Virus record (IMG/VR): IMGVR_UViG_3300003873_000080
Location: 1-20,326 of that record
Strand: one strand, 5' to 3'
DNA from: a virus
Length of the DNA: 20,326 nucleotides
Positions 3,727 through 11,004 of this stretch are shown here, piece after piece; within the stretch, counting starts at the first letter, position 1, and each line of letters begins with the position of its first letter. The translations under genes were made by a program, and so were the position numbers. The notes under the pieces were generated by a model. That model was given only the letters and a program-made list of their open reading frames with translations. It was not told where the DNA came from and ran no database searches.

Positions 3727-4540
3727 GTGCAGCAATCCATTTCGAAAGATTATCTTTACCATTAAGCATGTCTGAAATAGACCGGTTGACCAACGATTCA
3801 GACATCAACGGCAGTTCATCGGGTGTGAAGTCTTCATTCAACATTTGTTTTGTTAAAGTAAAATCGTTTTCGTATACATGCGAGCTGTTTAATAACATCG
3901 TTAACGAGCCAATTTCAAGGTTCGGATATGTGTCATGTAATTCTAACAGCATTGCTTGCTGTAGCATTGAGAAAAACGGAAAATCGAATGTTAAACCTTT
4001 TATACAATCGGATGAGCGCATATTAACGAAAAATTTCAGTTTGTTTTCACGAATTTGGAAAACTGAATTTAATGTACAAACGAAATCTTTATTTTCAGTA
4101 AACGAATGTACCGGTTTATTAAAACGCATGATTGCTTGACGAGAATCTTCAGAACTAATTAACGATTGTTTAGCCCATTCCCATTCTGTGAAGCCGTGTT
4201 CATTTTTAACATTCCATAATTGGTAACCGTACGCGGAATTACACGTACCATCTGTATTAGTAATATGCTTCCAGAACTTTGAATATTTTGAAATAAACGC
4301 TAAATCGTTGCTCCCTGAAAAATACCACAAAAATTCGCCAGCTAAGTACCGAGCCGGTGGACACCTAGCGTCGTTTTTAAATAAATTTGAAATCGGGTCA
4401 ATCACTGTAAAATATACATCCGTGATTTCTTTGATTTTTAAACCTCGCGGCGCGCATTCATATTCTGGCTTATAATATACCGAATGCAACAATTTATGAT
4501 ACGCATTAGCGAATGAATCCCCTATAATAATTTTTTCCAT
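3719..4540 (-). CDS. thymidylate-synthase-family enzyme, probable dCMP hydroxymethylase/methylase
   Basis: A 273-residue cytosolic enzyme of the thymidylate synthase fold, which transfers a one-carbon unit from methylene-tetrahydrofolate to C5 of a pyrimidine dNMP. Visible features are GEFLWYFSGSNDL at 68-80, SAYGYQLW at 102-109, DSRQ at 132-135, catalytic Cys155 (FVCTLNSVFQI), the phosphate-binding RSSD at 175-178, and SSHVYEND at 219-226. The residue aligning with E. coli TS Asn177 is Asp186 (GLTFD instead of GLPFN). Asn selects dUMP. Asp at this place is the known mark of dCMP enzymes such as T4 gp42 and of engineered N-to-D TS. I therefore favour dCMP hydroxymethylase over dTMP synthesis; dCMP methylation is also possible. 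The start ATG at 4540 overlaps the kinase stop, with GGAGGT 4 nt upstream. Confidence 0.8.
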   Translation of the reverse strand: MEKIIIGDSFANAYHKLLHSVYYKPEYECAPRGLKIKEITDVYFTVIDPISNLFKNDARCPPARYLAGEFLWYFSGSNDLAFISKYSKFWKHITNTDGTCNSAYGYQLWNVKNEHGFTEWEWAKQSLISSEDSRQAIMRFNKPVHSFTENKDFVCTLNSVFQIRENKLKFFVNMRSSDCIKGLTFDFPFFSMLQQAMLLELHDTYPNLEIGSLTMLLNSSHVYENDFTLTKQMLNEDFTPDELPLMSESLVNRSISDMLNGKDNLSKWIAAHA

Positions 4541-5112
4541 TATACCTCCGGTGTGTTTTCGATAGTGCGTTCGATAGTGCGTTCGATAGTGTGTTCGATG
4601 GCGTTTTCGATGTATTCGTCAAGTGCCGCGAAATTGTCTGAATCAACATCGATAAACGTTTTGCTTCCAATAACGGATTGTTTAAACGCATTATAAAATA
4701 ACGTTCGTTCTTGTGAAAACTGTTCGGTACTAATCGATTTACCGTCATCACGTGCAAACAATCCATCAGTCGTGCCAACCAGCACCAATAAACGAACATC
4801 GTGCATTTCATTAATATTTAATTCAGATTCGATCTCTAATGCATGGTGAAACGCAGTGCTTCTGTACATTGACCCGTAAACGCATTCTCCGATATGAGCT
4901 CTATCAAAATAAATGTCCCAGCCCGAGTCATTTAATTCTTTTGCCTTTGACAACAATGATGTATAATATTCGTGTGACCAATTTTGGTCAACACCCGTGG
5001 GTGGTTTTGCACAATGAATCAACATTTGTTTGGTGTTCTTGTTGAATTTCATAATTTTTTCTATAGTGGTTGATTTTCCACAATTATCCATACCTTCAAA
5101 AATGTAAATCAT
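4540..5112 (-). CDS. deoxynucleoside monophosphate kinase (thymidylate kinase-like)
   Basis: A 190-residue P-loop kinase that should phosphorylate dNMPs to dNDPs with ATP. The Walker A loop is EGMDNCGKSTT at 6-16, and the substrate-site FDRAHIGECVYG at 69-80 matches the DR(Y/H) region of thymidylate kinases. A LID-like segment with Arg is visible (FARDDGKS). The C-terminus ends in a low-complexity tail (EHTIERTIERTIENT) encoded by a 12-bp tandem repeat at 4553-4612. The start is ATG at 5112 with GAGGT about 9 nt upstream, and its stop overlaps the TS-fold gene start (TAATG). In this operon it would be well placed to phosphorylate hydroxymethyl-dCMP or another modified dNMP, as T4 gp1 does, but specificity is inferred. 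Confidence 0.85.
   Translation of the reverse strand: MIYIFEGMDNCGKSTTIEKIMKFNKNTKQMLIHCAKPPTGVDQNWSHEYYTSLLSKAKELNDSGWDIYFDRAHIGECVYGSMYRSTAFHHALEIESELNINEMHDVRLLVLVGTTDGLFARDDGKSISTEQFSQERTLFYNAFKQSVIGSKTFIDVDSDNFAALDEYIENAIEHTIERTIERTIENTPEV
4553..4612. repeat. 12-bp tandem repeat, five copies
   Basis: Five adjacent 12-bp units of the form GTGCGTTCGATA with a few changes, in phase with the kinase reading frame, encode a repeating (T/A)IE(R/H/N) tail. Slippage would add or remove four residues at the very C-terminus without changing the frame. Confidence 0.85.
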
Positions 5113-5130
5113 AATAACCTCGATGCATGA

Positions 5131-5544
5131 TTATTTATGACTAGAGCTGTTAAGATTCGGAAACGAAGCTAATTTAGCTGCGGAAAAGTCAACATATTTT
5201 GTGCTATCGTGTGTTTCCCAAAATGACCGTTCTTCTTGTTCGGAATCAAACGCTGGCACCTTCAGCAACTTATTTAGTTTTTTAAGTTCTTCAGCCTTTT
5301 CTTCACGACGCTTTTTACGAAGCGCGATACAACAAGTTCTTAAAAATGATGATGCATCGTCGTAAGTACTAAACCGTTCATCGTCAACGGTGATGTTTAC
5401 ATTATTCCCCTTTCGCGGAATCGCGACTCTGTACACTTTAAAACCTGTAATATCGTACGCTGCTGCGATTTGTGTTAAATCATCAACCCGTAGTTGGGCT
5501 TTTGCTGCGGTTTCAGTGTTTTCGTACGTCCAATTTAGAATCAT
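5131..5544 (-). CDS. unknown protein with CopG-antitoxin-like C-terminal peptide
   Basis: A 137-residue protein in three parts. Residues 1-70 look like a small beta-rich domain, about 75-95 is a very basic/acidic helix (LRKKRREEKAEELKKLNKLL), and 96-131 matches from memory the conserved segment of CopG-type (PF12441-like) type II antitoxins: VPAFDSEQEERSFWETHD, ST.Y.D, then FPNL. In those antitoxins this segment precedes a ribbon-helix-helix DNA-binding domain. Here the protein simply ends (NSSSHK). The start ATG at 5544 overlaps the DHH gene stop (TAATG), with GGAG 7 nt upstream. It might bind a host toxin as a decoy antitoxin; this is inference. I do not recognise the N-terminal domain. Confidence 0.7.
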   Translation of the reverse strand: MILNWTYENTETAAKAQLRVDDLTQIAAAYDITGFKVYRVAIPRKGNNVNITVDDERFSTYDDASSFLRTCCIALRKKRREEKAEELKKLNKLLKVPAFDSEQEERSFWETHDSTKYVDFSAAKLASFPNLNSSSHK

Positions 5545-6557
5545 TATCGTTCTCCGTTAATTTTTGTTATTACGCGTTGTGCTTCTTGTACTAAATCATC
5601 AACGTTTTTGTTATCGATTTTATATGTAAATGCATTCATATGACCGGTATATTTAGTGCCAGTTAACGCTAACCGAATCATGTCTTTGCTTGAATTAGAC
5701 ATGTTACAATCTTCATTAATCCTAACACGAATGATGCCATACGAGTTAATGCCAATGACGAAGTTCTGGCCGGTACTCATTTCTTTAATAAGTACAGCAT
5801 TAAATATATCGTCAATAAAACATAACGTAATATCGTCGCATTTACTTATTAATCCCCGCGCTTCGTAATCGACGATCTTGTCAGCACTTCGTTTATTAAT
5901 TGCATTAGTGATTTCAACAAAATCAGCCGGTAATTTATAATCTCGATTAATAATAACATTCATCAGATCTTCAATAGTATGTTCTTTTCCCCTCGTATAA
6001 TCCCAAAAATACTCGTTAATATTTTGAGACGTTCCGAATTCAGGCGCTTTAACTTGCCACAAATCGTAAACATCAATAAATCTTGTTAATGCTCGTAAAT
6101 TTTTGTTCGCTGAATTTTCTGAATCGGTTGAACTCAACCCAAAGTATTCATTGGATATTAATGTTGCTGATTTTGTTTTGTCATGCGAAACTCGCATATT
6201 CGGAAATTCGTCAAAAAAACCGTCGGGATATAAATGATGGTCAATAAAAATAATATTTTTGAAAGATTCATATAACGATTTGAGACATTGCTTGTTATCG
6301 CTAAATGAAACATCCATGATAATGAGCTTTGGCTTAATGCCGTTCCCGACTTGTTGAGCATTCGCAACTTTAATTATTTCTGTAGTGATTTGCTTAATAT
6401 TGCCATAATTAGTATGAAAATAATGTTTTTTGATGCCTTTCGTCACTGTTTCGAGATTCAACATACAACCTAACGCGTCCAAGTCATTATGCGTAAATAA
6501 TATAAGTTCATTTGTTTGCGTTGTTTGCGTTGTTTGCGTTGTTTGCGTTGTTTGCAT
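5544..6557 (-). CDS. DHH/DHHA1-family phosphoesterase
   Basis: A 337-residue metal-dependent phosphoesterase of the DHH superfamily, the family of RecJ, NrnA (nanoRNase/pAp phosphatase) and cyclic-dinucleotide phosphodiesterases. Motif I is THNDLDALG at 22-30 (H23, D25, D27), motif II IIMDVSF with D82, motif III FIDHH at 104-108, and motif IV SHDKTKSAT with D126. The C-terminal part has a weak DHHA1 glycine-histidine segment (TKYTGHMNAF). The first 15 residues are a Gln-Thr run (QTT repeated) from a 9-bp tandem repeat. Its length is close to NrnA. Likely substrates are short oligonucleotides or pAp; degrading a cyclic-nucleotide defence signal is also conceivable. Start ATG at 6557, after a GAGA-type site. 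Confidence 0.85.
   Translation of the reverse strand: MQTTQTTQTTQTTQTNELILFTHNDLDALGCMLNLETVTKGIKKHYFHTNYGNIKQITTEIIKVANAQQVGNGIKPKLIIMDVSFSDNKQCLKSLYESFKNIIFIDHHLYPDGFFDEFPNMRVSHDKTKSATLISNEYFGLSSTDSENSANKNLRALTRFIDVYDLWQVKAPEFGTSQNINEYFWDYTRGKEHTIEDLMNVIINRDYKLPADFVEITNAINKRSADKIVDYEARGLISKCDDITLCFIDDIFNAVLIKEMSTGQNFVIGINSYGIIRVRINEDCNMSNSSKDMIRLALTGTKYTGHMNAFTYKIDNKNVDDLVQEAQRVITKINGER
6513..6553. repeat. 9-bp tandem repeat encoding QTT
   Basis: On the plus strand the 9-bp unit GTTTGCGTT recurs in tandem four times, with a partial fifth. It encodes the Gln-Thr-Thr repeats at the N-terminus of the DHH phosphoesterase, directly after its start codon. Copy changes would stay in frame. Confidence 0.85.
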
Positions 6558-7356: not shown

Positions 7357-7385
7357 ATTATATACTAATGTAATCGAGTTGTCAA
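7357..7385 (-). promoter_or_regulatory. strong sigma-70-type early promoter
   Basis: On the minus strand, TTGACA (7385-7380), a 17-bp spacer and TATAAT (7362-7357) match the bacterial consensus exactly. It points into the early operon. The sequence TTAGTATATAATTATCGTAT around the -10 box recurs exactly in the promoter at 10976-11004. Around the -10 box the 8-bp arms TTAGTATA and TATACTAA (7344-7351 and 7361-7368) form a perfect inverted repeat with 9 bp between them, a possible operator. Confidence 0.85.
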
Positions 7386-8923: not shown

Positions 8924-9709
8924 ATGATTTTCGTTTCCGGACTACCGCGTTCTTGTAGCACGCTGTTGATGAATTTGTTAGCACAAAACGACGAGTTTTA
9001 TTGTACGCCCACATCGTGCACGATTTCGTTATTAGAAGGTATGCAAAATCAGTTCAGTACTGCACAATCGGTCAAAGCACAGCCAAGACACCAATTAGAA
9101 CAGAAGTTTGTGTCAGCTGCTCGTGGTATGATGGATGGTTTTTATAGTTCAAATAAAGACAAAATTATTATCGATAAAAATCGCGGTTGGTTGTCAAAGT
9201 ACTATTTGTTAAAGAAAATGTATTCTGACGTGAAGATTATCGTGTGTATTAGGGATTTAGCTGGTGTTCTTGAATCGATGGAAAAAAGAACAAGACGTAA
9301 TCCTGAGTACATCGAACAAACCAACCGCGGTTCAATTGTTACAAGAACAAAACAGCGATTGGATAGCCCAATGATTAAAGATTGTATCGAGAACGTTTAC
9401 GATGCATTAACTTTTGACCAAAACGATGTACTGTTTATAAGAGCTGAAGATTTGTGTTTAAATCCGTTTCGTGAGCTTGACCGGATTTATTCGTTTATTG
9501 GGAATTCAACCGAAACTGTTCAAAAAACGCATTCAAAAACTGTGATACAAAAAACACACGAGCACGATTCGGTAAACATGCCGTATGGTTCACACGATAT
9601 TTCGACGATAATTGAACCATTAAAAGAAACAAATATTTTAAATATTGAATTAGTGCAATACATACAAGACATGTATCCGTGGTACTTTTCAACATTTTAT
9701 CCGAGGTAA
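8924..9709 (+). CDS. sulfotransferase (PAPS-dependent)
   Basis: A 261-residue enzyme of the sulfotransferase family, which moves sulfate from PAPS to a hydroxyl or amine on sugar, lipid or protein, releasing pAp. The 5'-phosphosulfate loop is SGLPRSCSTLL at 5-15, close to the consensus PRSGSTLL, and the 3'-phosphate site is KIIVCIRDLAGVLESM at 104-119 with R110, D111 and S118. Length is normal for the family, and there is no membrane anchor. It starts directly after the preceding stop with only a weak AAGAAAG site, so translation is probably coupled. Being inside a tail-fibre operon, its acceptor could be a fibre protein or a host surface glycan; neither is shown by the sequence. Confidence 0.85.
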   Translation: MIFVSGLPRSCSTLLMNLLAQNDEFYCTPTSCTISLLEGMQNQFSTAQSVKAQPRHQLEQKFVSAARGMMDGFYSSNKDKIIIDKNRGWLSKYYLLKKMYSDVKIIVCIRDLAGVLESMEKRTRRNPEYIEQTNRGSIVTRTKQRLDSPMIKDCIENVYDALTFDQNDVLFIRAEDLCLNPFRELDRIYSFIGNSTETVQKTHSKTVIQKTHEHDSVNMPYGSHDISTIIEPLKETNILNIELVQYIQDMYPWYFSTFYPR

Positions 9710-10975: not shown

Positions 10976-11004
10976 ATTATATACTAAATAACATCGGGTG
11001 TCAA
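10976..11004 (-). promoter_or_regulatory. second copy of the early promoter
   Basis: On the minus strand, TTGACA (11004-10999), 17 bp and TATAAT (10981-10976). Twenty bases around the -10 box, TTAGTATATAATTATCGTAT, are identical to the promoter at 7357-7385. Inverted GATGTT/AACATC sites (10990-10995 and 10958-10963) flank the -10 box, and another TTGACA lies just downstream. It drives the 10614-10928 gene. Confidence 0.85.

Follow-up and report, generated by a model that had tools for sequence, protein, structure and literature searches.

A phage gene with the toxin-side half of a host-type antitoxin fused to a domain of its own: a candidate counter-defence against BrnT

The window analysed here, a stretch of 20,326 bases that makes up an IMG/VR virus record and is of phage origin, as seen from its tail-fibre, thyA and DHH genes, encodes a protein of 137 residues (g137) whose C-terminal part belongs to a family of host antitoxins. 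Only the presumed toxin-binding half of the antitoxin is present, and the DNA-binding ribbon-helix-helix (RHH) that follows it in bacterial homologues is lacking. We suggest, with a probability of roughly 0.6, that g137 is a phage counter-defence antitoxin directed against host BrnT, in which a captured antitoxin N-half has been joined to an N-terminal domain. The features on which the argument is based are as follows.

5131-5544, minus strand: g137, a 137-residue phage protein with an N-terminal domain and a C-terminal antitoxin half (open reading frame)
5143-5262, minus strand: residues 95-134, which match the N-half of PF12441 and presumably bind the toxin (VPAFDSEQEERSFWETHDSTKYVDFSAAKLASFPNL...; Pfam)
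5263-5364, minus strand: residues 61-94, predicted long, basic and charged helix linking the two parts (low-confidence AlphaFold2 model; pI 9.45)
5365-5544, minus strand: residues 1-60, predicted N-terminal alpha/beta domain without detectable relatives (tblastn-based scans; low-confidence model)
5544-6557, minus strand: upstream DHH phosphoesterase gene, translationally coupled to g137 (PHROG 4771, E 9.5e-12)
4540-5112, minus strand: thymidylate-kinase-like gene downstream of g137 (Pfam PF02223, E 6.5e-6, just under the cut-off)
7357-7385, minus strand: perfect sigma-70 promoter, matching the consensus at 12 of 12 bases (TTGACA-17-TATAAT) and preceding the leftward run of genes to which g137 belongs

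An antitoxin half without its DNA-binding domain

The original prediction placed the open reading frame correctly at 5131-5544 and proposed an antitoxin motif near its C-terminus. The frame lies on the minus strand and encodes 137 residues. Its ATG start codon shares one base with the stop of the upstream gene (TAATG) and has a GGAGA ribosome site in front of it. The motif itself proved to be genuine. In an hmmscan search of Pfam, residues 95-134 matched PF12441 (CopG_antitoxin) with an E value of 2.3e-12 and 47.9 bits, well above the gathering cut-off of 28 bits; this is the sole Pfam match of g137, and it spans only positions 2-41 of a profile that is 79 positions long. A second profile, built from the N-halves of seven bacterial antitoxins without the phage sequence, scored g137 at 63.8 bits. 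Among 20,000 shuffles none exceeded 14.2 bits with this profile, which rules out a chance motif, and the best other open reading frame of the window reached 4.6 bits.

The signature of the PF12441 N-half, P-x-F...EExxFWExHDSTxYxD...FPNL, is present in g137. The conserved residues P97, F99, E102, E105, R106, F108, W109, D113 and S114 are kept, as are Y117, D119, S121, A123, P129 and L131, while the family W120 is replaced by F (DW to DF) and the K/P that follows FPNL has been lost. Rhizobial antitoxins annotated as BrnA-type share 55% identity with the C-terminal half, whose best identity to genomic homologues is 66-67%. Two outcomes contrary to the original prediction, the lack of a profile match and membership of an unrelated phage family, were looked for and neither occurred; the motif had no significant match to a known phage family in PHROGs or NCBIfam. 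A PADLOC match to PtuA (E 0.006, 12.8 bits) and some weak PHROG matches were taken as chance.

Homologues continue from FPNLKPS into ISLRLP... (KPSTKTISLRLP...), the RHH, whereas g137 ends with FPNLNSSSHK*. RHH coding is absent downstream of g137 in every frame, and the next gene begins 18 bases past the stop codon, ruling out a frameshifted or truncated form of a full antitoxin. Together with the partial extent of the profile match, this bears out the earlier claim that the RHH is lacking and that the non-DNA-binding half stands alone. Because both an RHH and a neighbouring brnT were tested for and found absent, g137 is not classed here as a BrnA-type antitoxin.

Gene context and the proposed role of g137

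BrnT is a ribonuclease toxin of the RelE fold. A search of a genome collection confirmed 507 relatives, of which the closest 80, many from marine Gammaproteobacteria (Marinobacter, Halomonas), were kept. In 71 of these best 80 of 507 relatives brnT lies directly upstream of the antitoxin gene, and in one more (L088) the two are fused. Annotated plasmid loci display the same arrangement, brnT followed by an overlapping antitoxin gene, in six of seven cases. When 369 genomes from the class of Marinobacter were sampled, the segment was found in 18, with a BrnT match nearby at 16 of its 20 places. Since brnT adjoins most of the closest homologues, BrnT is the indicated partner, and judged from gene context the likely target is BrnT rather than RelE or HigB toxins generally. 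The original prediction had allowed for partners of the BrnT, HigB or RelE type; gene context upholds the first and narrows away the other two.

On the phage itself, the lineage is anchored, as far as sequence comparison goes, by the upstream DHH gene. Its product is 47% identical to that of Vibrio phages pv27, phiKT1024 and Va1, which have genomes of about 190 kb, and 40-51% identical to counterparts in 15 IMG/VR contigs. The genes that neighbour DHH in these contigs and in the Vibrio phages are almost wholly unlike those of the window. Further genes of the window encode a C5 cytosine methylase and a thymidylate synthase (both Pfam), a MazG-like protein, and tail-fibre, tail-fibre-assembly and other proteins. 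Among the tail-fibre genes, the protein encoded at 8924-9709 (plus strand) matches PHROG 27463 (no assigned function); its start (PRSCSTLLMNLLA) appears sulfotransferase-like by eye, which is unusual in this setting.

The promoter at 7357-7385 is compatible with, and at most suggests, early expression of g137 by the host polymerase. A second perfect sigma-70 promoter, with a 17-base spacer and likewise directed leftward, is found at 10976-11004 (minus strand). The sequence TTAGTATATAAT, extending to the -10 box, is common to the two, and they may be the early promoters of this phage.

BrnT (PF04365) was not found in the 20-kb fragment, and the DHH gene stands where brnT would be expected. It is conceivable that g137 is the antitoxin of a toxin-antitoxin pair of the phage's own, with brnT elsewhere in the genome: compared with the size of related phages (about 190 kb), most of the genome would lie outside the window, and one prophage does carry brnT and brnA as a complete pair (L012), which was the only other hit in viral collections (two scans of IMG/VR with antitoxin alignments). 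Nevertheless, we regard such a pair as highly improbable, as the brnT of this family is directly upstream of the antitoxin gene and overlaps it, whereas here that place is taken by the phosphoesterase gene and the fragment holds no BrnT. Moreover, the usual autoregulation would be impossible for an antitoxin that lacks an RHH.

The role that we propose is that of a counter-defence protein. From a BrnA-type (PF12441) antitoxin, the phage or an ancestor would have acquired only the N-half that binds the toxin, without the DNA-binding, autoregulatory RHH, and would have placed it after a domain of the phage's own. During infection, phage takeover would halt the resupply of the labile host antitoxin, and BrnT would be freed to cut RNA. 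g137, made from the phage's own transcript, would dock on BrnT through residues 97-131 and block it, so that translation could go on during infection. Binding and neutralisation, as well as when they occur and which host toxin is involved, are inferred, and a cognate host BrnT is assumed. If the proposal is right, modules of the BrnTA type should be able to defend against phages; the papers found describe no direct test or demonstration of BrnTA as an anti-phage system.

The contribution of the N-terminal part is less easily read. No relatives of residues 1-92 were detected in viral collections by tblastn-based scans. A single-sequence AlphaFold2 model of g137 (pLDDT 58) suggests a domain of alpha/beta type followed by a long basic helix at about residues 61-94, and no viral structure matched the model with an E value below 0.001. 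On account of this low confidence and the lack of a structure match, the fold was not used to assign a function. The N-terminal part may substitute for the RHH by stabilising or multimerising the segment, or it may act on the bound toxin. By analogy with TifA, it might even be that g137 binds BrnT to exploit it rather than to silence it, the N-terminal domain tethering or redirecting the host RNase. A plain inhibitor would need neither the extra domain nor the basic helix (pI 9.45), and TifA, which traps ToxN on RNA, provides a precedent (PMC10853763). This seems very unlikely, however, given a domain without known relatives, fold or activity whose structure is predicted with low confidence.

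Natural partners without an RHH and the age of the phage copy

If g137 is to act as a counter-defence antitoxin, the N-half would have to suffice for holding the toxin; the prediction from g137 is that about 45 residues are enough. In general, antitoxins bind their toxins through domains other than the one that contacts DNA (PMC4803016). Bacterial loci that bear on the question are as follows.

L032, 1706-2177, and L036, 1706-2195: Chloroflexi BrnT modules with an N-half-only antitoxin
L088, 1695-2276: single BrnT-antitoxin open reading frame of a Desulfurellales MAG

Both Chloroflexi modules encode an intact BrnT (PF04365, E 2.8e-24 for L032 and 1.8e-22 for L036). Their antitoxins, of 61 and 67 residues, match PF12441 only over positions 1-41 and 1-40, respectively, and no RHH was seen in the other frames of either locus. 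Between the two N-halves dN is 0.047 and dS is 1.08 (dN/dS of about 0.04), with 14 of 20 differences at third codon positions, showing that an antitoxin without an RHH can persist under strong purifying selection beside its toxin. Such partners of BrnT are rare (one case in 400 Chloroflexi genomes, among good-score PF12441 matches). A lone non-DNA-binding half, as originally predicted for g137, is in these natural modules paired with a toxin.

The single open reading frame of L088, which may stem from a frameshift near the junction of toxin and antitoxin genes, allowed both partners to be modelled as one chain. With 36 aligned toxin or antitoxin rows, AlphaFold2 gave a mean pLDDT of 84.7 and a pTM of 0.69. 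The toxin part of the model resembles 7vd7 (Z 8.6, 2.7 A over 83 residues) and BrnT 3u97 (Z 7.3, 2.1 A over 75), and the RHH part, from residue 145, resembles CopG-like domains (Z up to 5.5). The N-half (about residues 105-144) is predicted to be ordered, with block means of pLDDT between 77 and 90 and a helix at 113-122. Such order would be expected of a segment that docks on the toxin; what the model shows is order beside BrnT, not contacts. A sequence search for a solved structure of a PF12441 antitoxin gave no credible match.

RHH-less PF12441 halves were also seen at places where no BrnT gene directly adjoins them, namely L051 (the same gene as L056), L050, L067, L079 and L011; in L051/L056 the half comes after an open reading frame with an HTH-like sequence. 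These could be orphan antitoxins or decaying genes. In addition, a small gammaproteobacterial genome contains an antitoxin-like open reading frame of 53 residues without an RHH (L190, 1474-1653, minus strand of the locus), which adjoins a short, perhaps broken, BrnT match.

The antitoxin half of g137 resembles its phage neighbours in codon use. Its GC3 is 0.36, that of its own N-terminal part is 0.33, and other genes of the window range from 0.23 to 0.38. When compared with 80 homologous segments (79 genomic loci plus a prophage or repeats), codon positions were 68% identical at first, 74% at second and 36% at third positions. Silent sites are near saturation, while nearly all conserved residues have been kept. 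Phage-like codon use and near-saturated silent sites indicate that the acquisition was not recent, and the pattern fits an old acquisition maintained for its protein sequence.

Only one sequence of g137 is available. Searches of phages, of IMG/VR and of 37 contigs that share the DHH gene gave no relative of the N-terminal domain or of the protein as a whole; g137 is absent from all DHH-bearing stretches that were fetched, and PF12441 is absent from the seven records that were searched whole. As far as the collections show, g137 is accessory and confined to this phage.

This lack of conservation in related phages would agree with the captured half being a remnant without a toxin-neutralising role, either a recent accidental fusion or a structural segment. 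The bacterial RHH-less halves without BrnT (L050, L051/L056, L067, L079), being perhaps decaying genes, point in the same direction. However, the half in g137 is not recent, as judged from codon use and silent sites, and its conserved residues have been kept, whereas a useless tail would be expected to drift. For these reasons a remnant appears unlikely.

Comparison with known systems

The C-terminal 40 residues of g137 are homologous to the PF12441/BrnA-type antitoxins that occur with BrnT (PF04365), and are 55-66% identical to the nearest of them. g137 differs from these antitoxins in having no RHH, no adjacent brnT and about 92 extra residues in front.

Phage-encoded antitoxins are established, as exemplified by Dmd and AdfB/Gp145 (PMC11481870) and by TifA (PMC10853763). 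Dmd of T4, which acts against RnlA and LsoA, stands in for a host antitoxin by binding an RNase toxin directly, and by analogy g137 might do the same. The likeness is functional only, since Dmd is unrelated in sequence to the antitoxins that it replaces, with no apparent similarity to RnlB or LsoB (PMC11481870). By contrast, g137 is plainly homologous to host antitoxins, and the toxin families differ. AdfB (Gp145 of ICP1, against DarT) and AdfA (of RB69) are phage antitoxin mimics that serve counter-defence, the use proposed here for g137. AdfB has low identity to DarG and is presumed to be of independent origin (PMC11481870); its toxin also differs from the one suggested for g137. The origin of phage antitoxin mimics has been called uncertain, because Dmd, AdfA and AdfB are unlike the host antitoxins that they replace (PMC11481870).

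TifA, from T4-like phages, is a further phage protein directed against an RNase toxin (ToxN), and it has a basic segment, as does g137. TifA acts together with RNA and does not descend from the host antitoxin (PMC10853763). Among bacterial systems, PaaA of the PaaR-PaaA-ParE module is a short antitoxin for which full repression is delegated to a third protein (PMC4803016). PaaA is, however, unrelated in sequence to g137 and belongs to a complete bacterial operon that includes the toxin.

A review has already described partial matches of phage sequences to antitoxins, namely in orphan genes with likeness to about 30 residues at the toxin interface of a HigA antitoxin (E 1e-3 to 1e-4; PMC7354431). 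What is new here, as read from the protein sequence, is that a host antitoxin family is represented by its toxin-side half alone, in fusion with an N-terminal domain. This suggests that only the toxin-binding half of a host antitoxin was captured and that the regulatory half was lost. If g137 were a two-part device of the kind considered very unlikely above, in which the BrnT-binding segment delivers the host RNase to a phage domain, it would also be, to our knowledge, the first phage antitoxin built from the toxin-binding half of a host antitoxin alone.
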